Notes under the pieces: generated by a model
What the model saw: only the letters and a program-made list of their open reading frames with translations
Told to the model about the DNA's origin: nothing
Databases searched by the model: none
Program-made: the position numbers and the translations under genes
IMG/VR virus record: IMGVR_UViG_3300017748_000013
Location: 1-49,249 of that record
Origin: a virus
DNA: 49,249 nt
Direction: 5' to 3' (one strand)
Shown: one piece after another, positions 22,083 through 37,356 of the stretch
How positions within the stretch are numbered: position 1 is the stretch's first letter
How the letters are laid out: each line of letters opens with the position of its first letter

Positions 22083-22100
22083 GTTCTAACATGTTAGAAC
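22083..22100. promoter_or_regulatory. Palindrome copy 1 (GTTCTAACATGTTAGAAC)
   Basis: A perfect 18-bp palindrome lies four bases upstream of the first ATG of the primase-helicase gene, where a ribosome binding site would be expected. A bound protein or RNA hairpin here could block expression of that gene. The same sequence occurs five more times in the early block. Confidence 0.75.
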
Positions 22101-22115
22101 CCTTTCGATTAAAGA

Positions 22116-22167
22116 CACTACGGCAGAGGTGTCGATACACCCTTTTCGGTCTAGCCTAGCCGTAGTG
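22116..22167 (-). other. Long-loop inverted repeat between ssDNA-binding protein and primase-helicase genes
   Basis: CACTACGGC (22116-22124) and GCCGTAGTG (22159-22167) form a 9-bp stem around a 34-base loop in the intergenic leader of the primase-helicase gene. On the minus strand the stem is followed by TCTTTAATC, only weakly T-rich, so it could be an attenuator or mRNA structure and is not a convincing terminator. Confidence 0.35.
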
Positions 22168-22182
22168 GAAATTCTGTTGCGA

Positions 22183-22923
22183 TCAGTCGTCCCAATCTTC
22201 AATCACAGAACTAAGGTCATCATCGTCTGTGGGTGCAGGAGCAGACTTTTTGACAACCTTCTTCGGTTCTTGTGAAGCTGGAGCTTCTTCCTCAACAGAA
22301 TTAAAAATGTCATCGGAGTCATCGTCTTCATCTAACTCGACAACGGGTGCAGTGGTATCACTAAACGGGTTATCAGGTTCTGCTACGAACCCACCGTCAA
22401 CAACACCAAAGGGTGAACGTGATTGCATTGGTTTATATTCAATCACCTGTACGCCGTTAAGACGTAGACTAACGCCAGTACCACTCAGATTGTACGGCAC
22501 AAAAGTAAACGCAAGGTTCACGATGCTGCCGGTAGTCAACTGAAAGTCTTCTGGTAACTTATTATTCTTAGCGTCAACTTGCAGTGGAGGCGTCGTCTTG
22601 TCTGTACCATACGCCCCTTTCAGTTTAGCCTTACCCAAGTACCTACCATCTTCCTGCTTCTTGAATGGTAGTGGGAACTTGTCAGGCCAACCGTCCTCCT
22701 TCTTCTTGGTGTAAGCCGCCTTCATTGCTTTGTACAGCGTCTTTGCTTCTGGCTCAGTCATCAAAAACGATACGGTGTATTCGGCACCGTCGTCCAACGC
22801 GCTGCATTTCACAGAGCCGCCCTTACCACCGTTAGCTCGGTTATCGAACTTATAGGTGGTATCCAGTTTTGGGTACATCGCTTCTACGTTAGCGATCTGG
22901 TAGTACATATATTCTTCAGCCAT
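22183..22923 (-). CDS. Single-stranded DNA-binding protein with acidic tail (gp2.5/DUF2815-like)
   Basis: The 246-aa protein has a mixed beta-rich body (residues 1-165, including GKGGSVKCSALDDG and VNLAFTFVPYNLSGTGVSLR), then a long acidic, Pro-rich linker and a terminal DDDDLSSVIEDWDD. A body followed by an acidic tail ending in an aromatic-acidic motif is the design of phage ssDNA-binding proteins such as T7 gp2.5, in which the tail recruits replication partners. It lies directly upstream of the primase-helicase. A good ribosome binding site (AGGAGA, six bases before ATG) fixes the start, which overlaps the previous gene by eight bases. Confidence 0.72.
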   Translation of the reverse strand: MAEEYMYYQIANVEAMYPKLDTTYKFDNRANGGKGGSVKCSALDDGAEYTVSFLMTEPEAKTLYKAMKAAYTKKKEDGWPDKFPLPFKKQEDGRYLGKAKLKGAYGTDKTTPPLQVDAKNNKLPEDFQLTTGSIVNLAFTFVPYNLSGTGVSLRLNGVQVIEYKPMQSRSPFGVVDGGFVAEPDNPFSDTTAPVVELDEDDDSDDIFNSVEEEAPASQEPKKVVKKSAPAPTDDDDLSSVIEDWDD

Positions 22924-23578
22924 TTTGGTCTCCTGATTGGCTATTTATATCGAACCCTTCCGTCGTATCGAACAGTGTGTCTGATGTGGTCGTTTGACTA
23001 ATCGCCTCTAGCGCATCATCGTGATCTACCATCAAACTCACTTTCTCTAACTCATCTTCTTCCAACGGTCTGCGTGGGTAGAAGAACAGCTTTGGGTAAG
23101 GACTCCCTACGTCAAAACTGATTCTGGTGACAACCGCAACAGACGGTGTGCCATGCCCACTTAAAAATTTGGCGTAGGCTTGCAACGGCATACAGCTATT
23201 GTTTACCTCCTTACCAAATATACTGCTGGCGGGAACCTGTAGTTGGTAGACCGTACTTAGGTCTTGCTCCTCCACGACTGCTAGCCGCTGATGAAATCTA
23301 CAAGCTCTGCCACCTCCCGAACTAGAACCCCGAATGTTATGCACACAATCCATACATCGCGTACTTTGTCGTTGTTCTTCTGGCACCTCGGGTGCCGGTC
23401 TTTGCGTATCAGCCGACCAGCATGTTGGTGCTTGCCGTAACTGTGGGTCAAAGACTCCTTCAAAGTATGAACGTGAGACAGGCCCAGCGTTCACAATAAC
23501 AACATCTACCTCATCGCTAGATTCGGCGTGATGCAGGAACCCCGAAAATTTGGCCCCTTGAATACTTATTCGACGCAT
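22916..23578 (-). CDS. Zinc-ribbon-like replication-module protein, function unknown
   Basis: A start at ATG 23578 is preferred to the TTG one codon upstream because it overlaps the preceding TGA (TGATG). The 220-aa product has a cysteine pattern CMDCVHN, then RGSSSGGGRACRFHQRLAVV, which looks like a zinc-binding or ssDNA-binding knuckle. The rest is mixed alpha/beta with an acidic C-terminus. Overlap with the ssDNA-binding protein gene suggests a recombination or replication partner. I recall similar proteins next to phage ssDNA-binding genes but know no established function. Confidence 0.6.
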   Translation of the reverse strand: MRRISIQGAKFSGFLHHAESSDEVDVVIVNAGPVSRSYFEGVFDPQLRQAPTCWSADTQRPAPEVPEEQRQSTRCMDCVHNIRGSSSGGGRACRFHQRLAVVEEQDLSTVYQLQVPASSIFGKEVNNSCMPLQAYAKFLSGHGTPSVAVVTRISFDVGSPYPKLFFYPRRPLEEDELEKVSLMVDHDDALEAISQTTTSDTLFDTTEGFDINSQSGDQNG

Positions 23579-23793
23579 CAAACATCATCGTCAAGGTCTA
23601 AACTTTCTGGTTTTTTCTTTTCGTCGTAGCGCATTAGTGCATCAGCCACACGCTCAAGAGCAAATCTCTGGGTATGCCCTACCTTCACATACATGTTGTC
23701 TGGTATTACACCGTCACGTATCCACTTTCTGACTGTGGATAGACTGACACTGAAGTGTCTAGCTACGTCTTCAATCGGCACAAGAGTGTTCAT
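23578..23793 (-). CDS. Excisionase/MerR-type winged-HTH protein
   Basis: This 71-aa protein is nearly all one domain of the HTH_17 type: VPIEDVARHFSVSLSTVRKW, then IRDGVIPDNMYVKVGHTQRF, the wing and recognition elements of excisionase and MerR-like proteins. With no integrase in view, a transcriptional or replication-initiator role is more likely than excision. It overlaps its upstream neighbour by four bases (ATGA). It is one of two small HTH proteins that could bind the palindromes or GGAACATT repeats. Confidence 0.75.
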   Translation of the reverse strand: MNTLVPIEDVARHFSVSLSTVRKWIRDGVIPDNMYVKVGHTQRFALERVADALMRYDEKKKPESLDLDDDV

Positions 23794-24209
23794 TTAGCTT
23801 TCCTCATGGTCAGGACATACTCCGAATCTACGTTTAGTCCCTTTGGTAACTTATCTGGATTGTCTTCAAGGAATTGCTTGATAGCACCCTGATGTAGGCG
23901 TTTCTCAAAAAACTCAGGGACTTGTTCTTCCAGCACGAACTTGTGCATGGACTCCCAATCGTTAGTCCAATAGCGTTGTTTTACTGTGCGATAGAAAGTA
24001 CCGAAGTCAGTCTTACCACTCTTCTGTCCTGTAGACTTCAAGTGGTCAAGCAAGACTGTTTTTATCTTGTTTTGTTTCCGCTCTAGCACACCATCCGCTT
24101 CTTCAAACTCTCTCTTTAACGCATCGCGTTTAGCTTTGAGACTAAAAAATACGGAGGTCAGCTTATCTACAGGTAGATCAGTGCCGCTACAATCCGAATC
24201 CATATACAT
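23790..24209 (-). CDS. Gp157/Gam-like coiled-coil early protein, function unknown
   Basis: The protein has up to 139 residues. Met3 (base 24203) is the likelier start because GAGG lies seven bases before it. Residues about 15-60 form a charged coiled coil (LKAKRDALKREFEEADGVLE), followed by KTDFGTFYRTVKQRYWTNDW and a helical region ending with a short strand. The layout of a coil followed by an FGTF-like strand recalls siphovirus Gp157 and Gam-type host-nuclease inhibitors, but I cannot confirm homology. It lies between the helicase and the HTH gene. Confidence 0.55.
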   Translation of the reverse strand: MYMDSDCSGTDLPVDKLTSVFFSLKAKRDALKREFEEADGVLERKQNKIKTVLLDHLKSTGQKSGKTDFGTFYRTVKQRYWTNDWESMHKFVLEEQVPEFFEKRLHQGAIKQFLEDNPDKLPKGLNVDSEYVLTMRKAK

Positions 24210-24260
24210 CCTCGTGTTGTGTACGATGGTGAGGACTGCATGGTAGTGGTAGGCTATGAC

Positions 24261-25796
24261 TTATGCAAGTATTTCTTTGTATAAATCAATAATTTTTGTG
24301 TGTGTGTCTATCTTATTATCTAGTAATGAGTAAACACGCTTTTCGATGTGCGATCCCTGCAACTGCACAACTGTGCACTTGTGATCTTGCCCCGCTCTGT
24401 GCACACGCGCATTGGCCTGTGCATACGTTTCGACTGAGCTTGTTGGCCCCCACCATACCACAGTATTTGCAGCGGTCAGTGTAACTCCATGCGCTGCGGC
24501 TTGGGGTTGAATCACTAAGACTCTGGGGGCATCCGAGGTTTGGAATGCTTTGAATATATCAGTGCGTTGCGAAGCAGAAACAGCACCGCTAATTACTTCA
24601 GTAGGGATACCGTCTTTACGTAGCTTATCGGCAAGCAGCTTAATCGTGTGTTTGAACGGAACGAACACCAGCACTTTCTTACTCGACTCATCTATAACCT
24701 CACGTAACACTTTGTATCGGTGCTTGATGTCGAACTCCAATGTCTCGCCGCCATCTGTATAGACCGCACCAGAACTTATTTGCAGGAGCTTGTTCATGTT
24801 TACGGCTGCGGTATTGGTGGTAATCTCCTCACCAGCCGCCTGCATAATCATTTTGTCTTTCAGTTCTTTGTAGTATTTCTGCTGCTGCCGAGTCAACTCA
24901 ACCTCTCGTTTGGTATATACGATCTCAGGCAGGTCGAGGCATTCTTCTTTTGTAAACCGAATCGCAGGCTGTAATGCTTTGAAGACCGTTTCAGTAGCGT
25001 CAGGCTTGGGTATCCACTTAAAGTTGGTCACCTTGTACATGACCATATCTCTGAACGACCCAAAGAACCGAGGCACGGATTTGGGATTAATGAGTTTTGC
25101 TAGGCCATAGGCATCGACGGGACTTTGAGCGGCTGGTGTACCTGTTAACATCCAAAGCCATTTGTCGGAGCCAAGCAATCTGTTCAGTGTCTTCCATCGC
25201 TTCGTCTGTGCGTTCTTGTAGTGAGTTGCCTCATCAACAATTATCAGATCGAACCCACCGTTTGCTACAGCTTCCGCCACAATCTCTACTCCGTCATAAT
25301 TAATTATGACGAACTTGGCATCTCCACCAACTATTTCTTCACGTTTCTTAGCAGAACCGTAGGCAATATCTACGGTACGGTGCATCGCAAAGGTAAACAG
25401 ATCTTCTTTCCATGCAGAATCCATGATCGACAACGGGCAGATGATAAGCACCCGATTGATCTTACCTTGGTTCATTAAAAAATCTGCTGCCCATATCGCA
25501 CTGGCTGTCTTGCCAGTGCCCTGTTCGTTAAAACAAAAGGCTCTCTTGTTGAGCGTGAGAAAAGATGAAGTGGTCTTTTGGTGGGCAAACGGTTTGTGCT
25601 TACCCGTCCACTGATACTTACCTTCGATAGGCGACGGTGCCTTGATACCAAGATTCTTCAGCACATGCGTTTCATCAATACCCCAATTAACCACTACCTT
25701 GTTATCAGGTAGTGCTTTACTTTTTGGTATGACCTGCGTGACTTTCTCTTGATTGCGGAGCCTGAGTAATAAGGCTTTGTTGTCTATGACTCTCAC
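24261..25796 (-). CDS. SNF2/DEAD-like superfamily 2 helicase
   Basis: The 511-aa protein carries the SF2 motifs in order: Walker A EQGTGKT (91-97), motif Ia VLIICPLSIMDSAW, motif II DEATH (188-192), motif III LTGTPAAQ (218-225), motif V HGVTLTAANTVVWWG, and motif VI QANARVHRAGQ (460-470). This is the SNF2-related phage helicase type used in replication, recombination or fork remodelling. The start is GTG in TAGTG, overlapping the preceding stop by one base. No nuclease domain is fused to it. The gene lies between the alpha-CTD-like gene and the coiled-coil gene. Confidence 0.88.
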   Translation of the reverse strand: MRVIDNKALLLRLRNQEKVTQVIPKSKALPDNKVVVNWGIDETHVLKNLGIKAPSPIEGKYQWTGKHKPFAHQKTTSSFLTLNKRAFCFNEQGTGKTASAIWAADFLMNQGKINRVLIICPLSIMDSAWKEDLFTFAMHRTVDIAYGSAKKREEIVGGDAKFVIINYDGVEIVAEAVANGGFDLIIVDEATHYKNAQTKRWKTLNRLLGSDKWLWMLTGTPAAQSPVDAYGLAKLINPKSVPRFFGSFRDMVMYKVTNFKWIPKPDATETVFKALQPAIRFTKEECLDLPEIVYTKREVELTRQQQKYYKELKDKMIMQAAGEEITTNTAAVNMNKLLQISSGAVYTDGGETLEFDIKHRYKVLREVIDESSKKVLVFVPFKHTIKLLADKLRKDGIPTEVISGAVSASQRTDIFKAFQTSDAPRVLVIQPQAAAHGVTLTAANTVVWWGPTSSVETYAQANARVHRAGQDHKCTVVQLQGSHIEKRVYSLLDNKIDTHTKIIDLYKEILA

Positions 25797-26089
25797 TACC
25801 GTGATTCCGACTTAAACAAAACAAGATGATGTCTGGCTAAGGCGTTCAAGAGTTCAAAGAGAGAATCGGTGCCGAGTCCATTTATTGCGTATATCTCTTT
25901 TGCAGTCCACCCAGCTAAATCTCTCACGTATAAAATGCCTACACCGCCCAAGCAGTTTTGTGTGCGACTATTGAGATTTAGCTCTCGTATACGCATCTCT
26001 GTTTTAATTGAATCCATATCCCTTCCAATAAAAAGTGGGGCAGGGCCGTAAGGTTTGCCTACGCCGAGCATCCGGTTGAGGCCCACCAT
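25796..26089 (-). CDS. RNA polymerase alpha C-terminal-domain-like protein
   Basis: The 97-aa product aligns without gaps to the DNA-binding core of the RNA polymerase alpha-CTD: LNLNSRTQNCLGGVGILYVR, then DLAGWTAKEIYAINGLGTDS. Compared with E. coli RpoA from memory, Arg42, Asn45, Cys46, Gly73, Ser76 and Glu79 match Arg265, Asn268, Cys269, Gly296, Ser299 and Glu302, while Lys298 is replaced by Asp75. The fold is a helix-hairpin-helix relative that binds UP elements and activators. No alpha N-terminal assembly domain is present. The start is uncertain: ATG 26089 is given, with TTG 26110 and ATG 26017 (after GGAAGGG) as alternatives. Since the phage uses host polymerase, a transcription-redirecting role is plausible; a generic HhH DNA-binding protein is the alternative. 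Confidence 0.72.
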   Translation of the reverse strand: MVGLNRMLGVGKPYGPAPLFIGRDMDSIKTEMRIRELNLNSRTQNCLGGVGILYVRDLAGWTAKEIYAINGLGTDSLFELLNALARHHLVLFKSESR

Positions 26090-26276
26090 TACTGACGGGC
26101 CGTACCCCAAAACTGGTTGTGGTGGTTGGTGAAATTGACGCCTTCAACTCATCGCTCTATCAGACGATGTGTGGGGGAGCGTACTTCATTTCACCCTTTC
26201 TTTTGCAAGGCTTAAGGATAACGCCTTGGGAGAAAGTCGGATGCCACCACTCACCCGACTTCCATGCCCCCACTAG
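26090..26276 (-). other. Leader region before the alpha-CTD-like gene
   Basis: About 190 bases with no supported gene. On the minus strand AAAGGGTGAAATGAAG could start a 9-codon peptide ending TGA, too short to call. I see no clear sigma70 promoter, although the upstream terminator implies either read-through or a local promoter here. Confidence 0.4.
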
Positions 26277-26308
26277 AAAAAGTCCCGTCTTCGGTCACAC
26301 GGACGGGA
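26277..26308 (-). terminator. Intrinsic terminator on the minus strand
   Basis: On the minus strand TCCCGTC and GACGGGA form a 7-bp GC-rich stem (arms 26302-26308 and 26283-26289) around a 12-base loop, followed by C and TTTTT. It lies 34 bases beyond the stop of the 29-aa membrane peptide gene and about 190 bases before the alpha-CTD-like gene, so it separates an upstream from a downstream early transcript or dampens read-through. Confidence 0.75.
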
Positions 26309-26341
26309 ACGTGCTAACTGGGAGAAAGGAAACCCCCCGAC

Positions 26342-26431
26342 CTAAACCATTAAATACAAAATATACGCTACGAGATATATACCAGCAGCGACACCAACTC
26401 CAGCCAAAATACCTTTGACTTCCTCGCTCAC
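26342..26431 (-). CDS. 29-aa single-span membrane peptide
   Basis: A GTG start at 26431 overlaps the stop of the HNH-like gene by four bases (GTGA), and the frame runs 29 codons to TAG 26342-26344. The peptide begins with Met-Ser-Glu-Glu-Val-Lys and continues as one hydrophobic span: GILAGVGVAAGIYLVAYIL, then YLMV. An intrinsic terminator follows. The overlap, the clean membrane helix and the terminator argue for a real gene, although the Shine-Dalgarno sequence is weak. Possible roles include host membrane modulation, superinfection exclusion or lysis timing; none is demonstrated. Confidence 0.5.
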   Translation of the reverse strand: MSEEVKGILAGVGVAAGIYLVAYILYLMV

Positions 26432-26730
26432 TGCCTACGCCGTGGTCGGGCAGATGCTTTCTTCAAGGGCTTCTTACCATTACGACTACGGTTGGCGCTT
26501 TTACTTTCTACACGCACGCCGTCTTTGTTTGAACCACCACGGCTTAACGGCTTATTGTGACTTACGTCTTTGCCTTCACGTTTGTCTGCTCTACCATCTC
26601 CGTTGGCATCGCGGCTCGTTCTGTCCATAGCTCTACGCGCACGTTGTCTTTCCATACGTGCTTCATGCGCTTTGCTACCCACAGGCGGATTCTTTTGTTT
26701 CTTACGATCTTTTGGATTCTTGTACGGCAT
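26428..26730 (-). CDS. Small basic HNH-like protein
   Basis: The start is set at ATG 26730, which overlaps the stop of the nuclease gene (TGATG) and has GGAAGGAA upstream. The 100-aa product is strongly basic. Its C-terminal half carries DVSHNKPLSRGGSNKDGVRV followed by ESKSANRSRNG, which resembles the His-Asn part of HNH endonucleases (DxxHxxPxSxGGxN...NxR). The usual zinc cysteine pairs are missing, so it may be a reduced HNH nickase, perhaps helping terminase or DNA processing, or a non-catalytic DNA binder. It is coupled to the membrane peptide gene downstream. Confidence 0.6.
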   Translation of the reverse strand: MPYKNPKDRKKQKNPPVGSKAHEARMERQRARRAMDRTSRDANGDGRADKREGKDVSHNKPLSRGGSNKDGVRVESKSANRSRNGKKPLKKASARPRRRQ

Positions 26731-27401
26731 CAGTTCCTTCCATTGTGTGGGCATTCCGTGACAGGACAGTGCCGTTTGCACAGTCCACTAGGGCTTGGGT
26801 TCCATACATCAACATCAAACGATGACTGCATATCCCCATACCTAGCTAGCCATTTAACCCATAAATTACTTTCCTCTTGTCGTGTAAAAGTTTCCTTTAT
26901 GAGGTCACTACTTACCACGAACAATAAGCCTGCCCGAACAGTCTCCACTTCAGGGTAATGCTTAAACATAGCTAAGGTCATCAATTCTAGCTGACCTTTG
27001 TCTGCGTATCTTGCGGACTTACCTGTTTTGTAATCAACAACCCACGCTAACTTGTCCTCACGATCCAGTATCACAAGATCTGCAATGCCTCTGAACCACA
27101 CATCCTTAGCAAAGAAACTGCATGGCTCTAAGTCCTTAGTCAGACCCATCTTAATCTCACACAGCTTCTCACCTTTCTTGGCGTTCAGCGCGTCAAGTGT
27201 ATTCTTCGCATAACTAAACCTAGGGTCTAGTTCACCACCATCACGTATGTAAGTCTCCGCAGCTTCGTGAAAAGCTGTTCCATACAATGTGGCATCCGTT
27301 TCTTTGAACGGGTACTGGTTGAGTACCTTCTCATGGTAGAACTGTTTAGCGCACTGCTGGTACGCCTTGATCTTACTGAATGACCACGGTGCGGCGTTCA
27401 A
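26730..27401 (-). CDS. PD-(D/E)XK exonuclease, RecB/Cas4-like, possible Fe-S protein
   Basis: The 223-aa protein has the RecB-family nuclease motifs: WSFSKIKAYQQC at the N-terminus, GTAFHE (His45), GIADLVI (Asp108), VVDYKTGK (Asp123, Lys125) and Gln137. Cys17 together with Cys208, Cys212 and Cys217 near the end reproduces the four-cysteine arrangement of Cas4/AddB iron-sulphur nucleases. It probably resects DNA ends in replication-linked recombination. No ATG precedes the first motif; the start is TTG at 27401, overlapping the previous TGA, with GAGG ten bases upstream. There are no cas genes nearby, so a CRISPR role is not supported. Confidence 0.82.
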   Translation of the reverse strand: MNAAPWSFSKIKAYQQCAKQFYHEKVLNQYPFKETDATLYGTAFHEAAETYIRDGGELDPRFSYAKNTLDALNAKKGEKLCEIKMGLTKDLEPCSFFAKDVWFRGIADLVILDREDKLAWVVDYKTGKSARYADKGQLELMTLAMFKHYPEVETVRAGLLFVVSSDLIKETFTRQEESNLWVKWLARYGDMQSSFDVDVWNPSPSGLCKRHCPVTECPHNGRN

Positions 27402-27619
27402 TCTTCGTCATCCTCATCATGCACCTGTTCAAGACGTGCTTTGTAGTTGGCCCAGAATATGTCATCACTAAGATTAAATCTGTCATCTACCTGCACTATG
27501 TCAAACCGCAGCTTGGGAAACCTTCTGACGAATCTTTCTTTGGCATCGTAAGCAGCTTCGATGTGGGTGTACTTCCCGTCCATAAGCGGAGTGCCTGTAA
27601 ACAAGATAACGTAGCTCAT
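27398..27619 (-). CDS. Small early protein downstream of DNA polymerase, function unknown
   Basis: The start is ATG 27619, overlapping the polymerase stop (TGATG) with GGAGA upstream; the two TTG codons before it are unlikely starts. The 73-aa product begins with a strand (SYVILFTGTPL), has a helical middle (HIEAAYDAKERFVRRFPKLR), and ends acidic (VHDEDDED). It has no catalytic motif. Its place between polymerase and exonuclease genes suggests an accessory replication factor. Confidence 0.5.
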   Translation of the reverse strand: MSYVILFTGTPLMDGKYTHIEAAYDAKERFVRRFPKLRFDIVQVDDRFNLSDDIFWANYKARLEQVHDEDDED

Positions 27620-29636: not shown

Positions 29637-29637
29637 A

Positions 29638-30141: not shown

Positions 30142-30150
30142 TGTGGTCTC

Positions 30151-30474
30151 CTAAAAATCAAACGCCATTTGGCGTTCATCAGTTTCTTTTTGGTTGAGAA
30201 TATCCGCGACTGTATGCACGTTGTCCTCGTTTACTACCGCAGCGATGCCATCGCATGAGCGGATTTCTTGTAGGTTCTTAGTCTGTAGCGTAGTGAGTTT
30301 TCCCTTCCCCGCCTTGCATTCAATACCAAAGAACTTACCTTGATAGCACCCAACAATGTCGGGCACACCGCTGCGCCCATACCCACCCGATACGGGGTAG
30401 AAGTAGTACGCACCGATATTTTTAAGGACAGACGTTACCTTGTCCTTCACTTTCTTTTCTGGCGTCTTTGCCAT
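30151..30474 (-). CDS. VRR-NUC domain nuclease
   Basis: The 107-aa protein is a stand-alone VRR-NUC (PD-(D/E)XK) nuclease: GVPDIVG with Asp39, GIECKAG with Glu52 and Lys54, then Gln64. Such small phage enzymes act on branched or nicked DNA in recombination or packaging. The C-terminus QMAFDF resembles the Q-x-x-hydrophobic-x-F peptide that docks on bacterial sliding clamps, a possible link to host replication. The start is supported by AAGGGAAAC before ATG. Confidence 0.85.
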   Translation of the reverse strand: MAKTPEKKVKDKVTSVLKNIGAYYFYPVSGGYGRSGVPDIVGCYQGKFFGIECKAGKGKLTTLQTKNLQEIRSCDGIAAVVNEDNVHTVADILNQKETDERQMAFDF

Positions 30475-30484
30475 GTTTCCCTTC

Positions 30485-30835
30485 CTATCCGAACACCCAA
30501 TAGGTCTCGGGGCCAGACCTAAGTCCGACCCCTGCCACCTGTGGCGTTTGTGGTTCCAACACCGAAAGCCTGAGTACCTTGTCTCTCAGTTCTTGCGGCA
30601 GTTCGTCTATTGAATAGTAGACACCACGATATGGACTGTCAACACATTCCATACCAACGCACAATACTTTCCAACAGTCTATCTTACTATCTACTTTTAT
30701 GTGATAGATAGGGCCATCATGTGATAACTTATTCTGTTTAGCTAGTGTTGTTGTTATTGCCTCCACCATAGCTAAGTTATCGTAATAGTTGGCCCAGTAT
30801 CTAGTCAGTTCTTTCTTACCAGTTGTCGTGGACAT
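30485..30835 (-). CDS. Early protein, 116 aa, with tail shared with its upstream neighbour
   Basis: The protein is unrecognised. It has a helical N-terminus (YWANYYDNLAMVEAITTTLA), a central strand region (PIYHIKVDSKIDCWKVLCVG) and a C-terminal tail (LRLSVLEPQTPQVAGVGLRS, then ETYWVF). That tail resembles the tail of the gene before it, suggesting a shared binding peptide or an old duplication. It overlaps that gene by 20 bp and has GAGG nine bases before its ATG. Confidence 0.5.
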   Translation of the reverse strand: MSTTTGKKELTRYWANYYDNLAMVEAITTTLAKQNKLSHDGPIYHIKVDSKIDCWKVLCVGMECVDSPYRGVYYSIDELPQELRDKVLRLSVLEPQTPQVAGVGLRSGPETYWVFG

Positions 30836-31733
30836 AGAACATATCCTCTGTCAGCTTCATCCCCACACCCCGTACATACGTCTGATCCTCCAGCACTGTC
30901 AGTCGATTGACGTACCCCGCAAGCTCCTCGTACCTGTCCTTGGTGTCACCTATGGGACTGAGGATCTTAGACTCAAAGTAGTTACTGTGGCGGTTGTCCC
31001 AATGCTCATCTCCGTTCACCACTGCTTTCGGCACCGGCACCGTAAACAATAGATGATCGTCACCGTACTGACTTTTCTTGATGCAGATGAACGTAGCGTT
31101 TGTGTTCATGCCTTTGTCTTCAAACAGATCCCATTCAATCTGTGCTGCTTCTCGAACACCCTGCTGAAATGCACCTTCTGGTAACTCGTCAACCATTGCT
31201 CTGCACGTAGTCCACGCATTGGGTGTGTTCGCTGCTTGATTGGCCCTGTTGTGTGCATTGTGTTGAAACCCCAAACTGACCATCTTTTCACGTAGCTGAG
31301 TGTCCAGATTTGTGGTGCTACTCCTTCGGGCCTGACGTAACGTATCCATACCTGCCTCTGCGATTCTACCCGTCACCCAAGGTTGTAAGTACCTGCAAGC
31401 GTTGCTGACCGCAGTCTTCAACCGTTTGCTCATCAGCATGGATTGCTGTTCACTGTAGCTGGCGTACTTGTTGTTACAGATACTGTGAGCGCAAACAACG
31501 TACTGCTTTGTTTCGCCTGTATCCGTGAACACACCGTAACTTATCCACCCTAGTGGGAACGGACTATCGTCAAAGACAAACACTTTACTAGAGCTACCAT
31601 GCTTCATCTTACGGAAATGTACCCAAGACATCTTGCGTTGCAGTTCCAGCATGAAGTCTCTTATGTGTTCGTCTGGGATAGACTTGACGGTGACTTCTAC
31701 CGTTTCGTTCTTGTGTGTGTATTCGTTTTTCAT
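30816..31733 (-). CDS. Early protein, 305 aa, function unknown
   Basis: No family is recognised. The sequence is mixed alpha/beta, with conserved-looking segments KVFVFDDSPFPLGWISYGVF, ETKQYVVCAHSICNNKYASY and VTGRIAEAGMDTLR. The C-terminus (NRLTVLEDQTYVRGVGMKLT, then EDMFYV) is shared in outline with the next gene. Its leader holds a palindrome copy 26 bases before ATG, followed by AAGGAAAC as ribosome binding site. It follows the AAA+/VWA module and may be a substrate or adaptor of it; this is inference from position only. Confidence 0.5.
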   Translation of the reverse strand: MKNEYTHKNETVEVTVKSIPDEHIRDFMLELQRKMSWVHFRKMKHGSSSKVFVFDDSPFPLGWISYGVFTDTGETKQYVVCAHSICNNKYASYSEQQSMLMSKRLKTAVSNACRYLQPWVTGRIAEAGMDTLRQARRSSTTNLDTQLREKMVSLGFQHNAHNRANQAANTPNAWTTCRAMVDELPEGAFQQGVREAAQIEWDLFEDKGMNTNATFICIKKSQYGDDHLLFTVPVPKAVVNGDEHWDNRHSNYFESKILSPIGDTKDRYEELAGYVNRLTVLEDQTYVRGVGMKLTEDMFYVHDNW

Positions 31734-31758
31734 CGTTCCTGTTTCCTTATTTTAGTTT

Positions 31759-31776
31759 GTTCTAACATGTTAGAAC
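31759..31776. promoter_or_regulatory. Palindrome copy 2 (GTTCTAACATGTTAGAAC)
   Basis: A perfect 18-bp palindrome sits between the VWA gene stop and the 305-aa gene, ending 26 bases before the ATG. A TAAAAT hexamer follows on the minus strand, so the site could occupy the -35 region of a local promoter or act as a block on read-through. Confidence 0.75.
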
Positions 31777-31779
31777 TCA

Positions 31780-33033
31780 TTACAGTTTGCTGCTGTCTAA
31801 GTGGACAGCGCTGCCTACACTTGGTTGTGTGCGCTTGTTATCCAAGATCAACCACAGTAAGGGACTGTTCCATCGCCCCCAGCTACCACCCAAGTATCCG
31901 TCCGTGAACACGATAACTGCTTGTGGGTTGATGCTGTTCTCTTGAATGTATCGAGTCACACAAGTGACATCCGTACCACCGCCGCCTTCTGGCTTGGTTG
32001 ACTTGCGTAAGTCTGCGATCTCATGCTGCTCGTAGACTTCTTCACGGCACACCTGCGTATCCCAGTAAAGCACTCGTATCTTCTTAGGCTTCACTGTCTC
32101 ACAGATGTGTGCGACCTCAGACAGAAACACGGTCAACTCTCTCTGCCCAATAGACCCTGACGTATCGCACGCAAGCACCAGTTCATCAACGGTTTCGGTG
32201 ATGCCGCTCGGCATGTACACACCTGCCCCGATGTACCTTCGGTTTGGACGTTTCCATGTGGAGTAGTCACTGCCTTTGCATGTGTCGTTAACGAACTCAC
32301 GCAATACATCTCGCCAGTTAACCTGCGGAGCCAGCAGTTCGTCTATTGACCTGTTACCACCTGACCCCATCTTGCCTGCGGCGAGCACACCCTGACGTAG
32401 TGCTTCGTCAATCTCGCGCTCGTTCTTGCGCTGTTCCTCTGCGGGTATCTCTTGTGCACCTTCCCAGTCGTGCTCGTCAAAGCCTTGTGGTAACTCGTTA
32501 CTAGGTTGACCATTTGTTGGGGGGTCGTCTGGGCTTGATACGTTCCCAGTACCTTTACCTTCTTCTTGCAGTGTTTTGAAGATAGCAGCCGAGTCCATCC
32601 ACCCGCTCTTGATCCTGTACTTCTCGTCGTACAATCCAATGATCTTGCCCTTATCATCGACGGGCATGGTGGCAAATTTGTCTGACTTGTTCTCATCCAC
32701 CAACTTGCCGTTGATGTTGTAGTCACAAGCAGCATTAGCCAGTGGCCCGTCCTTGTCATACATCCACCGCCATGTGGTCAGGTGTTTGTATATCTTGTGA
32801 TACAACTCATGCAGCAGAACAAAGCGTAGCTCTGCATCGGTCAACGATTGTGCAAACGCACGCCCGAACTTTATGTCGATGCCGTTTGTCTGAGCGGTTG
32901 GTATGTCTTCAACCACTTCGATCTTACCCAGCATCAGCGCACCAGCAGCCCACATGTATCGGTCATGCCGCATGATGTCCACAACACACTTCTGTAGGCG
33001 CTGTTCTTCCGTTAGTTTTGTTGCTAGTAACAC
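31780..33033 (-). CDS. VWA-like protein with N-terminal metallopeptidase-like domain (DUF2201 type)
   Basis: The 417-aa protein has two domains. The N-terminal one has HELYH (75-79) and AACDYNING (Asp104), the zinc-peptidase-like pattern of DUF2201 proteins. The C-terminal VWA-like domain has a complete metal-ion-dependent adhesion site: DTSGS (290-294), GGGTD (Thr354, Asp355) and FTDG (Asp378). A charged linker joins them. Together with the MoxR-type ATPase gene 267 bases upstream it forms the classic AAA+/VWA pair, in which the VWA protein directs the ATPase to metal-dependent remodelling targets. The start is GTG with GGAGGG upstream. Confidence 0.85.
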   Translation of the reverse strand: MLLATKLTEEQRLQKCVVDIMRHDRYMWAAGALMLGKIEVVEDIPTAQTNGIDIKFGRAFAQSLTDAELRFVLLHELYHKIYKHLTTWRWMYDKDGPLANAACDYNINGKLVDENKSDKFATMPVDDKGKIIGLYDEKYRIKSGWMDSAAIFKTLQEEGKGTGNVSSPDDPPTNGQPSNELPQGFDEHDWEGAQEIPAEEQRKNEREIDEALRQGVLAAGKMGSGGNRSIDELLAPQVNWRDVLREFVNDTCKGSDYSTWKRPNRRYIGAGVYMPSGITETVDELVLACDTSGSIGQRELTVFLSEVAHICETVKPKKIRVLYWDTQVCREEVYEQHEIADLRKSTKPEGGGGTDVTCVTRYIQENSINPQAVIVFTDGYLGGSWGRWNSPLLWLILDNKRTQPSVGSAVHLDSSKL

Positions 33034-33034
33034 G

Positions 33035-33295
33035 TTACTCGACCCTCCATATTTGTATTGCTGAGTTTTCTACGTTGCGCTTTACCGTTACTTTTTGATT
33101 AGCCCTTTTTGCTATGGCAGTTAGGGAGCTAGCGCGATTGCTTATCCCTCTGCCCCTCTTATTTTTTCTGTCCAAATCAAATACAACGGAGTCGCCTACT
33201 TCCCACATCTTCACAAGATCATATAAATCTTGATGTTTCTTACGGGCACCAACACCACGTTGAGGTATCGGTACGTTCTTTATTATTTCTATCAT
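33035..33295 (-). CDS. Small basic protein between AAA+ and VWA genes
   Basis: The start is set at ATG 33295, just after the ATPase stop, with AAGGTG upstream; longer forms would run back into the ATPase gene. The 86-aa product (IPQRGVGARKKHQDLYDLVK, WEVGDSVVFDLDRKNKRGRG) looks like a small basic nucleic-acid-binding or beta-barrel protein and ends QIWRVE. Its place inside the module suggests a dedicated adaptor, but no known family is recognised. Confidence 0.55.
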   Translation of the reverse strand: MIEIIKNVPIPQRGVGARKKHQDLYDLVKMWEVGDSVVFDLDRKNKRGRGISNRASSLTAIAKRANQKVTVKRNVENSAIQIWRVE

Positions 33296-33299
33296 CTGC

Positions 33300-34412
33300 T
33301 TACACCTTGTCCGCTGCGAACATGTATGAATTCTGCATGGCCCACTCGCCATACTTGGCATCTTGCACCACGGCCTCGCGTCGTTTGTGGTCGAACTTCT
33401 CAGCACGAATACCGTTGACGAACAGACCTTGTGCTTCCTTATCAAGACGCGATAGGTACGTCATCCATGCCGGAACCCAAGACCTTTCGATAGAGCCAAG
33501 CGTTCTGAACACCACCATGCACATAGCCGATGGAGTCTTGGGTATCATCGCCGTGTCTGGATTCTGTTTGATCGACTCCAACGTCGGCAGGTCGTTTGCC
33601 AGCTTGACGAATGCCATCATGTCCATCGCGGCCTGCTCACCGATGATGCCCATGAGCAAACCCGTTATGACATGGGGGGTTAGCTGTTCGCGTTTCTTGA
33701 TGATGTGACTCGCCTTCTCCAATGATCGGGGGGTCACAAATGCAGTCCGTTCCTTGGCACTGGGGTGGTAGATGTATGGGTTGTCGCGTGGGTCAGGCAC
33801 CTCATCGAATGTCTGAAACAACTGCGGGGTCTCTTTGACCCAACCCAGCAGGATAGGATCGACACCGTTGTTCAACCCCCACTCTATCCACTCCATGTTA
33901 GTGGGCTTGCGTACTCGCATCCGCACTATCCGATTGCACGCATGTGCTGGTAACAAGTCACCCACACCTTCGGCACCTAGGTTAGTCGTCGCAAAGACAA
34001 TTGAGTCGGGGTGCAGCTTGCGTCCTGCTAGCATCCGTTCTTGTATCAAACCCAGCAGTGCCAGCTTGACCGATGGGTTGGCTTTACCGAACTCGTCAAG
34101 ACACAACACAACTGGCTCATTGAGATGCAGCCCCAGTTCTTCGTTGGTTGCGAATGTCACGGATGACACCTCATCGTTGAGCTTGATGTTGGGGATCATC
34201 AGATCACCCAAGTCCTTGGTAGTGCAGTCGAACAAGATATGTCGGTGCTTCGGGAACTTCTGCATTAACATCTTTAGGATAGATGTCTTGCCTGTACCCA
34301 TGTGCCCCTCGGCTAAGTACACAATCCCACCGTCCTGTTCTCTACCAGTTTCGGCAATGGCTTCTGCGGATTCGTCCAGCGATACCGCGTACATGTTTAG
34401 AGCTTGGCTCAT
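33300..34412 (-). CDS. MoxR/CobS-type AAA+ ATPase
   Basis: The 370-aa protein has Walker A EGHMGTGKT (35-43), Walker B VLCLDE (102-107), sensor 1 FATTN (140-144) and the helix-2-insert region of MoxR-type AAA+ proteins, then a helical C-terminal part. Such ATPases form hexamers that work with VWA partners to mature or remodel protein complexes. The partner gene lies just downstream and a DUF3150 gene just upstream. AAGGAGA precedes ATG. What it remodels here (host polymerase, capsid, replisome) is unknown. Confidence 0.85.
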   Translation of the reverse strand: MSQALNMYAVSLDESAEAIAETGREQDGGIVYLAEGHMGTGKTSILKMLMQKFPKHRHILFDCTTKDLGDLMIPNIKLNDEVSSVTFATNEELGLHLNEPVVLCLDEFGKANPSVKLALLGLIQERMLAGRKLHPDSIVFATTNLGAEGVGDLLPAHACNRIVRMRVRKPTNMEWIEWGLNNGVDPILLGWVKETPQLFQTFDEVPDPRDNPYIYHPSAKERTAFVTPRSLEKASHIIKKREQLTPHVITGLLMGIIGEQAAMDMMAFVKLANDLPTLESIKQNPDTAMIPKTPSAMCMVVFRTLGSIERSWVPAWMTYLSRLDKEAQGLFVNGIRAEKFDHKRREAVVQDAKYGEWAMQNSYMFAADKV

Positions 34413-34433
34413 TATGGTCTCCTTAGTTTCTTG

Positions 34434-35384
34434 TTAGATTTCCAATGATGGAAGGTTATCAATGACGTTCTGTGTCATGGATTTGGTTTGCGCTCTCAGG
34501 TACGGACTGTCCCTGAGTGCTTCGGGTGTGACGCGCAGCAGTTCATTTTCTAGCCTGTCACACAACGCGCTGATCTGAGTGTTACCGATGACGTTACATG
34601 ACCTAACCAGTTTGGTTGCGTCGAGTACGTTACTGATAAGCGTGTTACGGAAGATGGCCTGTTCCCCGTCAGGCGTTTCACCTAGCCGATCAACCATCTT
34701 TCCTAGATAGTCTTTCAGTTCACCCAGCACCCTGTTCATGCCAGTGGCGTAGGTTTCTTGGATGAATTTGTCGTAGCCTTCTTTAGCGACCTGCAATGCC
34801 TGAGTACCTATGTCCACTCTGAAATCGTCACCTGAAGGTACGGGATGTGTCAGCACTTCCAGTGAGAACTTATCCTGTAGTACCGATCTGTCTGGGTACT
34901 CGTGAGCACGAAACATATCGCCAAGCACTGCTTGCTGCTCGGACACATAGAAGTCATACGAGTCTAGGAACTCATGGACTTTCTTATCGAACATCTGCTT
35001 TTTGGCAGTCACTTTGTTTATGTAGTCTGGGTACACTGCTTGAGGGCAGAGACGTGGGCCGCGATCTATCCACGGCATGGTAGTGCGATAGTGAATGTGG
35101 TTGCGGGTCTCACCGATGATTGACTTGATGCTTGCGAGTAACTTGTTACCAGCGAACAGATTCTTGGTGTATGTGCCCGCCTGAGACTCGGCATTGTTGT
35201 CGTGAGCGACCTGCTGCGAGATGTCCTCGTCAGTCACCTTACCGTCCCAACAAGACGTTTTTAATTCGACCAGCACCGCAGCACTGGAGATAGAGGGTAC
35301 GTTGATCTCAGAGAGACTCGGTAGCTCTGTCTGTTCTAACATGTTAGAACCTGTTGGTTCAGAGATGTCGTGTAGGTTTTCCAT
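34434..35384 (-). CDS. DUF3150-like partner of the AAA+/VWA module
   Basis: The 316-aa helical protein contains VLVELKTSCWDGKVTDEDIS, KNLFAGNKLLASIKSIIGET, then RNHIHYRTTMPWIDRGPRL, which resembles DUF3150, a family found beside CobS/MoxR ATPases and VWA proteins in conjugative elements and phages. The start shares its A with the previous stop (TAATG) and has AAAGGAAAA upstream. Codons 12-17 are made by a palindrome copy, so Gly-Ser-Asn-Met-Leu-Glu is dictated by the DNA site. The family assignment is from memory and should be treated as probable. Confidence 0.65.
   Translation of the reverse strand: MENLHDISEPTGSNMLEQTELPSLSEINVPSISSAAVLVELKTSCWDGKVTDEDISQQVAHDNNAESQAGTYTKNLFAGNKLLASIKSIIGETRNHIHYRTTMPWIDRGPRLCPQAVYPDYINKVTAKKQMFDKKVHEFLDSYDFYVSEQQAVLGDMFRAHEYPDRSVLQDKFSLEVLTHPVPSGDDFRVDIGTQALQVAKEGYDKFIQETYATGMNRVLGELKDYLGKMVDRLGETPDGEQAIFRNTLISNVLDATKLVRSCNVIGNTQISALCDRLENELLRVTPEALRDSPYLRAQTKSMTQNVIDNLPSLEI
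35333..35350. promoter_or_regulatory. Palindrome copy 3, inside the start of the DUF3150-like gene
   Basis: This perfect 18-bp palindrome is the only copy within an accepted coding region, beginning 35 bases after the A of the start codon. Exact retention inside a reading frame argues for selection on the DNA or RNA site and not just intergenic drift. Confidence 0.75.
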
Positions 35385-35767
35385 TAGTTAGTTTTCCTTT
35401 CTCTTAGTAAGTAAATGAAACCGCTCAATAGCAGTTCGTCTTTCTCTGGGTCACCCCAGTTCGTTATGGCCCGCAGTAAGTAATACTTCGGTAGCCAATT
35501 CAGTTTCACAGCCATACGCATGGCAGCTAAATCGTGGTACTCGTTTAGCTCCATGTCTCCACCGACTTCGACTAGCACTTCTTCGCCCTTCTCACCCATC
35601 GTATTGATGGCTTTGATCTTTGCCGGTTTGGTATCCGTTGCTGGCACATAGCTAGTTACGATGCGTTGCAGATGGTTCCGCTCCACATGTATGTCTAACG
35701 TGTCCAGTACATCCTTAACGTCTTCCAACTTGCTTCTCCTATCTCCCAATGTGTTCGATGTCGCCAT
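35384..35767 (-). CDS. Early protein, about 127 aa, function unknown
   Basis: The start is ambiguous. ATG 35767 overlaps the preceding gene by 29 bases. TTG 35728 lies after AGGAGAAGCAAG, an excellent ribosome binding site placed just after that gene's stop. The TTG form would have 114 residues. The protein has a short helix, a strand region (IVTSYVPATDTKPAKIKAIN) and a helical C-terminus (LAAMRMAVKLNWLPKYYLLR). No motif is recognised. It precedes the DUF3150-like gene with a TAATG overlap and so belongs to the same translational chain. Confidence 0.5.
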   Translation of the reverse strand: MATSNTLGDRRSKLEDVKDVLDTLDIHVERNHLQRIVTSYVPATDTKPAKIKAINTMGEKGEEVLVEVGGDMELNEYHDLAAMRMAVKLNWLPKYYLLRAITNWGDPEKDELLLSGFIYLLRERKTN

Positions 35768-36023
35768 CAGGTATGACCTGATACGCACCTTTGTTGTAGG
35801 GGATGGACACAGTGAACAGATTGTTCTTCTGTCCGTCCCGGTTCTTTCTGTCACTTGCATCGTAACCTGTTAGCGCGTAGTGGCTTACTGGCCCCGTGTG
35901 CGACGGGTACTTCGCACGAAAATCGGCAGAGCGTTGTTGCTCGGTGGGGGTACTGCAAACCATCGGTTTGAAAGGTCTTGCAGGCCGTCGAGGTTTACGC
36001 ACTGGTTTGTATCTTCTTGGCAT
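35739..36023 (-). CDS. First gene of the main early operon, basic 94-aa protein
   Basis: The product is very basic at its N-terminus (MPRRYKPVRKPRRPARPFKP) and then polar, with SHYALTGYDASDRKNRDGQK and a short C-terminal strand. It has the best early ribosome binding site (AGAGGAGA before ATG) and lies 88 bases downstream of the near-consensus early promoter, so it should be made first and strongly. A basic first early protein often targets host nucleic acids or polymerase, but its target here is unknown. Confidence 0.6.
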   Translation of the reverse strand: MPRRYKPVRKPRRPARPFKPMVCSTPTEQQRSADFRAKYPSHTGPVSHYALTGYDASDRKNRDGQKNNLFTVSIPYNKGAYQVIPDGDIEHIGR

Positions 36024-36038
36024 ATTGTCTCCTCTGTA

Positions 36039-36056
36039 GTTCTAACATGTTAGAAC
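36039..36056. promoter_or_regulatory. Palindrome copy 4, in the leader of the main early operon
   Basis: A perfect 18-bp palindrome lies 15 bases upstream of the first ATG of the operon, adjoining its ribosome binding site and about 55-70 bases downstream of the predicted transcription start. A protein bound here would act as a roadblock. It shares 24 identical bases (palindrome plus TTGTTA) with copy 5. Confidence 0.75.
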
Positions 36057-36069
36057 TTGTTACTGTAAG

Positions 36070-36085
36070 GTCGCTTGAGGGCGAC
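36070..36085 (-). other. Small hairpin in early leader
   Basis: GTCGC and GCGAC form a 5-bp stem around a 6-base loop in the 5' leader between the early promoter and the palindrome. It may influence mRNA stability; alone it is weak. Confidence 0.35.
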
Positions 36086-36117
36086 GAATCAATTGTGTAT
36101 CTGTCACACACAAAGAC

Positions 36118-36146
36118 ATTATCGCATATTCGTCGTCTTGTGTCAA
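36118..36146 (-). promoter_or_regulatory. Early sigma70-type promoter driving the leftward block
   Basis: Read on the minus strand: TTGACA (36146-36141), a 17-bp spacer, then GATAAT (36123-36118). The spacer ends TGC, so there is also an extended -10 TG. This is nearly consensus and should fire immediately with host RNA polymerase. Predicted start is near 36111, giving a leader of about 88 bases to the ATG at 36023. Confidence 0.85.
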
Positions 36147-36373
36147 GTATTATGATTAGGTGTTTTCTAATGGTTAGAGGTGTAATGTTCTATAATGTTC
36201 CAGAATGTTCCCTCGTATAGGTGGGCAAGTCCTTGATTTACCTAGAATGTTCCAATGTGCCTTTTTTAGGGAAATTGAATGGGTGGCGTAGAAGGGAGGA
36301 AGGAGGACGGAACATTAGGTAATTACGTGGTAACTTGTTTGGTGTGTGTTTTTACTAAGTCAAAATCTACCCC

Positions 36374-36415
36374 TATACATATATATTTCTAAAAAAGGAA
36401 CATTATACATATATA
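36374..36415. repeat. AT-rich direct repeats (possible DNA-unwinding element)
   Basis: TATACATATATA occurs at 36374-36385 and again at 36404-36415, exactly 30 bp apart, in a stretch of very high AT content inside the GGAACATT cluster. Such easily melted DNA next to repeated binding sites is expected at an origin; promoters are the alternative, since TATAAT-like hexamers are embedded. Confidence 0.6.
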
Positions 36416-36430
36416 GTCTTAAACGAATAT

Positions 36431-36460
36431 GCAGATACCGCCAGATAACGCCAGATACAA
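36431..36460. repeat. Three tandem 10-bp repeats (CCAGATAACG type)
   Basis: GCAGATACCG, CCAGATAACG and CCAGATACAA follow each other without gaps. The 10-bp period again matches a helical turn, and the core CAGATA is invariant. They lie between the AT-rich repeats and the right GGAACATT array and form a second type of binding-site array. Confidence 0.75.
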
Positions 36461-36577
36461 CCATACACCATCTGTCATTTGTTCCTTTTTGCCCAAAAAA
36501 AAGGGAACATTAGGGGAACATTATGGAACATTTGGAACATTACCCCCACGTAAAAAGGAACATTGCTCAACTGCCAT

Positions 36578-36595
36578 GTTCTAACATGTTAGAAC
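36578..36595. promoter_or_regulatory. Palindrome copy 5, edge of the repeat cluster
   Basis: A perfect 18-bp palindrome at the right edge of the GGAACATT array, in non-coding DNA with no supported gene start near. With copy 4 it brackets the control region. Confidence 0.75.
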
Positions 36596-36663
36596 TTGTT
36601 AACTTATGGTTTCTTCTGTCACGCAACGCTACGTTAGGAACTGGCCTCACAAGGTGGGGGCGT

Positions 36664-36696
36664 AAAAAAACCCCGACCAGCAAATGCTGGCCGAGG
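36664..36696 (-). terminator. Strong intrinsic terminator after the 174-aa early gene
   Basis: On the minus strand CCTCGGCCAGC and GCTGGTCGGGG form an 11-bp stem (two G-U pairs) with a 4-base loop, followed by TTTTTTT. It lies 19 bases past the stop of the gene at 36715-37239, insulating that transcript from the repeat cluster. Confidence 0.9.
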
Positions 36697-36714
36697 TTGG
36701 TTGGTGGTTGGTAG

Positions 36715-37239
36715 TTAGGACTTGATTGCTTGGCGTAGAGCCTTGATCGCGTCCATTACCGGCTTGACGTTTTCAATGTCTGGCGTCTCGGCGTTTTCTA
36801 TCCGTTTCTCCATCGCCGTGCATTGTTCAGTTAGATAGGTCGCTAGCGTTTTCTTCGTGCGTTTCGCAACCTCGCCAGCTCTGGCTTTCTCCACTGCCAC
36901 TACTGCCTGCTTCCATCGGGTGCAGTATTGGGTGACACTTTTCTGAATGGACTTGCGTTCTGCCTTTTCATCATCACTTAGCGCGGTAGTCGGTGTGGCG
37001 ATAAGCCTAACCGCTTTCTCCCCTCGCCCTCGAATGATAGCAGCGCGATGCTTTGCCCAGTCCAGTTTGTTAGTCGCGTCCGTTGCCTGTAGTTTCAGCA
37101 AATCTTTCTCGCTAGTGGGGAGCCAGATGGACTTACCACCCGCATCAAGATAGGCGTTAACCGCTTTCTCTTTTGATGCTTCACTCTCGCCGAATTGTCC
37201 AGTTGCCGCGTACAGATCTTTCATTGTTATGTTAGTCAT
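36715..37239 (-). CDS. Isolated early protein, 174 aa, own promoter and terminator, function unknown
   Basis: The product is helical and highly charged: LQATDATNKLDWAKHRAAII, RGRGEKAVRLIATP, then a long coiled-coil-like C-terminal half (EKAERKSIQKSVTQYCTRWK, AMEKRIENAETPDIENV). No catalytic motif is seen. It is transcribed alone: a candidate promoter lies at 37292-37320, GGAG precedes ATG, and a strong terminator follows. A separate monocistronic unit beside the control region suggests a regulator, replication initiator or host-takeover protein, but I cannot say which. Confidence 0.55.
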   Translation of the reverse strand: MTNITMKDLYAATGQFGESEASKEKAVNAYLDAGGKSIWLPTSEKDLLKLQATDATNKLDWAKHRAAIIRGRGEKAVRLIATPTTALSDDEKAERKSIQKSVTQYCTRWKQAVVAVEKARAGEVAKRTKKTLATYLTEQCTAMEKRIENAETPDIENVKPVMDAIKALRQAIKS

Positions 37240-37291
37240 AAGAATGACTCCTTTTTAGTTAAGTTATGCCGCCATCGCTGGCGACCAATAC

Positions 37292-37320
37292 ATAATAACA
37301 AACCACCAGATAAATGCAAA
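37292..37320 (-). promoter_or_regulatory. Candidate promoter for the isolated 174-aa early gene
   Basis: On the minus strand TTTGCA (37320-37315), a 17-bp spacer and TATTAT (37297-37292) match sigma70 at 4/6 and 5/6 positions. Palindrome copy 6 lies 20 bp upstream of the -35. The predicted leader is about 45 bases. Confidence 0.55.
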
Positions 37321-37340
37321 GAATGGCATTAAATACCAAC

Positions 37341-37356
37341 TTCTAACATGTTAGAA
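37341..37356. promoter_or_regulatory. Palindrome copy 6 (trimmed: TTCTAACATGTTAGAA)
   Basis: The 16-bp core is perfect, but the outermost left base is C instead of G, so the 18-bp symmetry is lost by one pair. It sits about 100 bases upstream of the 174-aa gene, above its candidate -35, a position suited to an activator or to a repressor of the divergent late side. Confidence 0.7.

Follow-up and report, generated by a model that had tools for sequence, protein, structure and literature searches.

Palindromic sites in the early block of an uncultured phage group are lineage-specific and usually switch with the first early gene, a candidate regulator

The 49,249-bp stretch analyzed here (the window) is part of the genome of an uncultured phage with numerous relatives in IMG/VR, and it raises the question of what recognizes an 18-bp palindrome, GTTCTAACATGTTAGAAC, that recurs in its early block. 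The phage group is uncultured and mostly marine. In the window, late genes (terminase, portal, large virion proteins) occupy the plus strand, and an early/replication block occupies the minus strand (DUF927 primase-helicase, SSB-like, SNF2 helicase, family A polymerase, DUF2201, AAA and DUF3150-like genes). The initial annotation had proposed an early-block regulon of symmetric sites, controlled by a phage or host regulator and possibly acting by roadblock repression. Comparison with relatives reveals a feature that is not visible from the single window: the palindrome sequence is lineage-specific and switches together with the first early gene. We think it probable that this gene encodes a dimeric phage regulator, which would repress the other early genes by acting as a roadblock at palindromic operators.

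Five copies of GTTCTAACATGTTAGAAC are perfect, and a sixth, CTTCTAACATGTTAGAAC, has one mismatch, its 16-bp core starting at 37341; these positions agree with those annotated initially. The accompanying assertion that six matches cannot be chance was also correct, as 0.01 matches to GTTCTAACATGTTAGAAC are expected from 100 dinucleotide shuffles. All six copies fall within the early block (22083-37357). No further 18-mer match with up to 3 mismatches was found in the whole window, in agreement with the claim that the late genes hold no copy, and querying the 16-bp core, again with up to 3 mismatches allowed, added a single match, TTCTAACAAGTCAGCA at 17044 in the late region, which is chance-like. 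The copies are numbered here as putative operators:

37340..37357: operator 1, CTTCTAACATGTTAGAAC, one mismatch; precedes the first early promoter (37320-37292), with about 63 bp separating it from that promoter's predicted start
36578..36595: operator 2, perfect palindrome match
36039..36056: operator 3, perfect; follows the predicted start of promoter P2 by about 64 bp and precedes the 94-aa gene by 15 bp
35333..35350: operator 4, perfect; within the 316-aa DUF3150-like gene, at its 5′ end
31759..31776: operator 5, perfect; in the gap separating the 305-aa gene from the DUF2201 gene
22083..22100: operator 6, perfect; 4 bp before the start of the DUF927 primase-helicase gene

The gaps between copy and start codon are 4 bp for the primase-helicase (start 22078), 25 bp for the 305-aa gene (start 31733) and 15 bp for the 94-aa gene (start 36023). 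The distances are thus as first claimed, except that the 36039 site had been assigned to the first early gene and actually precedes the 94-aa gene. The first early gene is a 174-aa gene at 36715-37239, with its start 100 bp past the 37340 copy. Translation across the 35333 copy reads EPTGSNMLEQ, so this coding copy does specify Gly-Ser-Asn-Met-Leu-Glu as annotated. The label 'DUF3150-like' for the 316-aa open reading frame that contains it is fair, because two of three tested orthologues score above the DUF3150 cut-off; the 316-aa gene itself has no Pfam match.

Relatives were gathered via the polymerase and, in addition, via the AAA gene, giving 148 non-redundant IMG/VR loci. An exact-match IMG/VR search for the window motif returned close copies only, and matching at up to 4 mismatches found little in relatives outside the closest clade. 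Because direct matching gave so little, palindromes were sought de novo, a locus being credited with its own palindrome at 3 or more copies, with mirror repeats and shuffled DNA as controls. An own palindrome was found in 134 of the 148 loci (mirror control, 3; shuffled, 0); an earlier seed-based count among DNA-polymerase loci had given 284 versus 0. The polymerase-found relatives are mostly without the window palindrome, and their own palindrome fills the same early-block slots. Examples are TGTCTAAC-N2-GTTAGACA, TGTTAGTG-N3-CACTAACA, TTTACGGA-AT-TCCGTAAA, TTTAGGGA-N2-TCCCTAAA, TTCGGGCA-N2-TGCCCGAA and GTTATAC-GCC-GTATAAC. Altogether, 102 loci yielded about 40 half-site consensuses, with 3-13 detected sites per locus lying many kb apart; within one genome the arms are constant and the central 1-5 bases vary. 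In a class-by-genome matrix of the window and five relatives, 59-66 kb long and drawn from different classes, only the diagonal was filled, each genome holding its own class alone, and no sites were found in the late genes of these six. Across relatives the sites stay near early starts as the flanks diverge, and symmetry is retained while the palindrome sequence changes, which bears out the proposed early-block regulon of symmetric sites. In one locus, L122, an other-class operator, TGTTAGGGACTCCCTAACA, lies at 14762-14780 among TGTTAGGC-type sites and may have been imported by recombination; in its close relative L126, that slot is occupied by the normal type.

Symmetry of this kind could also serve in RNA, and a hairpin acting on translation had been the annotated alternative. 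Hairpins in early transcripts, either lambda N/boxB-like or translational repressor sites, might be bound by the first-gene protein; the sites are transcribed and near starts, and lambdoid phages have N-like proteins that are early and diverse. However, the arms do not behave as paired stems. Of the 168 deviations confined to one arm, a G-U pair survives in 13, an A-C mismatch results in 24 and a transversion mismatch in 131, and only 6 two-sided changes are compensated; the conserved stem pairing of a lambda N/boxB-type system was therefore not seen. Furthermore, the would-be loop varies within a genome where the arms are constant, some spacers measure only 1-2 nt, and operator 1 precedes the predicted start for the first gene's promoter. 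Since the deviations do not preserve RNA pairing, and since variable centers and 1-base spacers favor a protein dimer on DNA, a role as RNA hairpins is very unlikely; judged by these patterns, the sites are DNA operators for a protein dimer.

To name the cognate gene, ranking by identity was of little use, as the area under the curve was 0.93-0.98 for seven of eight gene families. We therefore compared switch pairs, defined as loci with AAA proteins at least 85% identical and different motifs, with same-motif pairs. Median identity of the first gene was 25% in switch pairs versus 72% in same-motif pairs; the corresponding values were 74% and 89% for the DUF3150-like gene, 82% and 87% for the DUF2201 gene, and 49% and 68% for the 305-aa gene. 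By sequence comparison the clearest switch pair is L106 and L107, which share about 95.6% nucleotide identity in late genes and 89% in the rest of the early block, and have no similarity over site 1 and the first gene; their mapped operators have changed in place from TGTTAGTG-type to TTTACGGA-type with the flanks conserved. A second pair, L115 and L117, has 100% identical AAA proteins and different motifs. Their first genes are identical in the C-terminal 47-51 residues and differ in the preceding part, and the L117 operators have switched apart from two transitional ones (7107, 9801), one a half-site hybrid and one an unchanged old-class site. This pair is weaker for naming the gene because a second stretch also differs (75% identity, L115 7614-8533). 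Sites are conserved better than flanks in same-motif pairs (0.96 vs 0.87) and worse than flanks in switch pairs (0.56 vs 0.77); both differences are highly significant, although the pairs have ancestry in common. Where near-identical phages differ in palindrome, the first early gene has usually been exchanged, and from these comparisons it most likely encodes the palindrome binder.

Two other genes were considered and rejected. The 305-aa gene (30816-31733) evolves nearly as fast as the putative regulator (40% between the A and B classes, where neighbors are mostly at 66-83%), but it is near-identical in L074 and L055, which differ in motif. The 71-aa helix-turn-helix (HTH) gene at 23578-23793 does not track the motif, because it is 79-87% conserved between genomes that differ in it; the earlier suggestion of small HTH proteins as binders was thus not sustained.

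The same comparisons bear on a host regulator. Palindromes of such size are typical of bacterial regulators, and if the phage had borrowed the operators of, for example, LexA, motif differences would reflect different hosts, which close relatives could well infect. Yet phages with 98-100% identical neighboring proteins bear unrelated motifs, the motif switch coincides with replacement of a phage gene, and the approximately 40 half-site types all occur in one phage group. A LexA-type regulon would place the same site in close relatives regardless of their phage genes, and this was not found. Because near-identical phages differ in motif, we give this explanation very little weight; of the original 'phage or host regulator', the phage regulator is retained.

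The family of the first-gene protein comprises 104 members in these loci, each recovered by profile search; for 102 of them the locus has a motif, and 82 of these have a detected site 18-161 bp ahead of the called start. AlphaFold models of two members, with predicted local distance difference test (pLDDT) scores of 85 and 86, are all-helical with one long helix (helix 6, residues 89-120 in the window protein). A fold search of the window model against a viral library gave no match. After correction for overall identity, alignment columns that covary with the motif are concentrated in helix 6 (99-102, 104, 107-111 and 115), with a few in a loop at about 37-44, and classes with GTTAG half-sites tend to have a QQQIG-like stretch in the helix. 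This correlation among related sequences points to the covarying helix columns as a DNA-contacting surface.

How such a protein might act is suggested by where the sites lie. Intergenic positions and gene ends account for 747 of the 905 sites, compared with 27% for random positions in the same span, and the sites peak 20-40 bp before start codons. Near-consensus sigma-70 promoters are enriched 40-140 bp upstream of sites (80 vs 2.9 expected in the 40-60 bp bin), giving 175 promoter-site pairs of this type in 113 loci; predicted promoters seldom overlap sites, and no promoter element stands in a fixed register to them. In the window the arrangement is exemplified by P2 (36146-36118) followed by the 36039 site. 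The first-gene site differs from the others in lying upstream of the predicted promoter, mostly by 60-100 bp (32 loci with a promoter call). Downstream of the first gene, a terminator was predicted in 70 of 104 family loci versus 6 of 312 control stretches, so that the gene resembles an independent transcription unit, the arrangement one would expect for a regulator. The proposed regulator, its signals and its putative targets are as follows:

36715..37239, minus strand: first early gene, 174 aa, proposed cognate DNA-binding regulator; hyper-divergent, all-alpha family with long helix 89-120
37292..37320, minus strand: predicted sigma-70 promoter P1, TTTGCA-17-TATTAT, extended -10; consensus match 9/12
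36669..36698, minus strand: predicted intrinsic terminator (sequence prediction), 13-bp stem and T-rich tail, closing the first gene's unit
36118..36146, minus strand: predicted strong sigma-70 promoter P2, TTGACA-17-GATAAT, upstream of the next early genes; 11/12, same arrangement in 113 loci
35739..36023, minus strand: 94-aa early gene, putative target, downstream of operator 3
34434..35384, minus strand: 316-aa DUF3150-like early gene, putative target
30816..31733, minus strand: 305-aa early gene, putative target, fast-evolving
19217..22078, minus strand: DUF927 primase-helicase gene, putative target

Building on the operators, their placement, the lineage-specific sets and their co-switching with the first gene, we infer the following sequence of events. 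The first gene would be made first and alone, since it has its own predicted promoter and terminator, and its product would bind the symmetric sites as a dimer through contacts that include helix 6. Bound protein would then block elongating host RNA polymerase downstream of early promoters and between early genes, turning down early and replication genes by a stoperator-like roadblock. We favor roadblock repression, as the initial annotation did, because the sites lie 40-140 bp downstream of strong sigma-70 promoters and in early-gene gaps. This would shut early expression off and might also exclude co-infecting phages that share the operators, and specificity would change through replacement of the regulator gene, or of its DNA-binding part, together with rewriting of the dispersed operators.

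The main rival keeps the same protein and operators and has the protein act near early promoters as an activator or as an antiterminator/processivity factor. Operator 1 would suit an activator, since a site upstream of the first promoter, by about 63 bp in the window, is at a common activator position, and early-first expression would suit an antiterminator. However, most sites are downstream of the promoter start or within operons, far from an activating position, the promoters already match the consensus at 10-12 of 12 positions, and the lack of a fixed register noted above does not fit activation. We consider this rival unlikely, though the least so of those weighed here.

Several observations count against roadblock repression by the first-gene product. 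Operator 1, upstream of P1, is more easily explained by activation or some other role than by a roadblock, and the promoters and terminators were predicted from consensus sequences. In about a fifth of same-motif pairs, first-gene identity is below 50%, the P, Q and M classes differ in motif at 63-82% first-gene identity, and locus pairs are not independent. The protein has no match in Pfam, PHROG, PDB sequences or known DNA-binding folds, a fold search of the two AlphaFold models against the PDB found none, and profile searches give weak single-member matches, a few of them to HTH families. Finally, one common origin across all classes is likely but unproven, since first genes of distant classes are 13-25% identical and several were initially recruited by position.

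The co-switching invites comparison with phage immunity. In the immunity regions of lambdoid phages (lambda, 434, 21, P22), repressor and operators switch together between close relatives, and because the operators adjoin the repressor genes, a single cassette carries both. In the present group, in contrast, the 3-13 detected sites of a locus are rewritten separately. A closer parallel is found in cluster A mycobacteriophages (L5, Bxb1, Trixie), where repressor-bound stoperators roadblock elongation and form the basis of heteroimmunity (PMC6550527, PMC9283540). As in that cluster, each genome has many dispersed copies of a lineage-specific site, and the distance between site sequences tracks that between regulators, here the first genes. 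Cluster A stoperators, however, are asymmetric 13-bp sites, mostly in one orientation, genome-wide and mostly away from promoters, whereas the sites described here are palindromes confined to the early block. The cluster A repressor is monomeric and comes from temperate phages; the candidate here is the first-expressed gene, it shows no sequence or fold match to that repressor, and no lysogeny gene was found. Specifically, 23 records yielded no tyrosine integrase and nine yielded neither ParB nor an above-cut-off resolvase, so a role in lysogenic immunity is without support, though these records may be incomplete. A bolder possibility, which we put forward tentatively and hold to be less probable than the roadblock itself, is a heteroimmunity-like system without detectable lysogeny genes, in which a new DNA-binding family is made first and shuts off early genes at the dispersed palindromes, and selection for escape from the repressors of relatives would have produced the roughly 40 specificities, with replacement of the regulator and coordinated in-place rewriting of operators between near-identical genomes.

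Palindromic repeats have also been described in cluster O, where Corndog carries 34 copies of TGTTCGG-N3-CCGAACA, proposed to be dimer-binding sites; the authors thought transcriptional regulation unlikely, as most sites are away from promoters, and no cognate protein is known (PMC4351075). The present sites resemble these in having invariant inverted arms, a variable center and many copies, many of them intergenic or near starts. One sequence serves all cluster O members, whereas here the motif switches between lineages and has a candidate cognate gene; and Corndog-type repeats lie in early and late regions, mostly not promoter-linked, whereas those described here are promoter-linked and, in the six records compared, restricted to the early block. 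Non-transcriptional sites for partition, replication, packaging or recombination, bound by the first-gene protein, could nonetheless be envisaged, given that Corndog-like repeats also occur in coding DNA (PMC4351075) and that repeats extend through the late region in two cultured phages. The strong tie to early promoters and gene starts argues against this, as do the absence of ParB from the nine records tested and the presence of a separate conserved repeat, AATGTTC, that marks a putative origin and does not switch; we rate such a role improbable.

That repeat stands out in its own right. Between the first early gene and P2, the non-coding stretch at 36150-36600 (minus strand) holds a dense array of AATGTTC(C)/(G)GAACATT repeats and of AT-rich ATATATGTATA runs. 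Across 104 relatives, the AATGTTC word shows a 22-fold enrichment in the 700 bp that follow the first gene (5.33 vs 0.24 per kb), and, unlike the operators, it is constant across lineages. This stretch is likely a replication origin.

Cultured phages are related to the window only distantly; the closest are Rhizobium phage RHph_TM3_14A by DNA polymerase (36%) and Pelagibacter phage HTVC027P by terminase (46%). RHph_TM3_14A (L092/L149/L169, MN988472.1) has about 41 copies of GTTACCT-N4-AGGTAAC, at up to 2 mismatches, over the whole genome including late genes. Planktothrix phage Pag-Yong1 (L341, OL906435.1), a cultured cyanophage, has 28 copies of GGTTCAG-N-CTGAACC in 50 kb, across early and late regions, together with AAA and VWA early genes; its first early gene was not recognized by the family profile. 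In the stretches read from cultured KPP25, Rollin, HTVC023P, HTVC027P, 023Pt_psg01 and DSL-LC04, no such palindrome set was present.

Dispersed lineage-specific operators (cluster A) and unexplained palindromic repeats (cluster O, PMC4351075) were thus already known. We found no description, in the literature searched, of their combination: palindromic early-block operators, a regulator family without a known fold, some 40 half-site types and near-identical genomes with co-rewritten dispersed operators. An orphan protein family is here tied to a DNA code by comparative genomics alone, the near-isogenic pairs are ready-made material for specificity swaps, and the family-to-site table is a source of orthogonal repressor-operator pairs. 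The findings also raise the question of how dispersed operators change with their regulator, and why so often, in lytic-looking phages. If the protein does block co-infecting relatives, superinfection immunity and its arms race would extend to phages without lysogeny genes.

Two side observations complete the picture. Bacterial-genome relatives of the polymerase have neither the first gene nor such palindromes; they include L312 and L318, Bradyrhizobium contigs from isolate genomes in which much of the early block has distant counterparts (polymerase, 40%); these are possible prophages. In the window itself, a 19-fold 12-bp tandem repeat (GAGCCAGAACCT-like, coding for Glu-Pro) lies at 7337-7669 within the 1959-aa virion gene.

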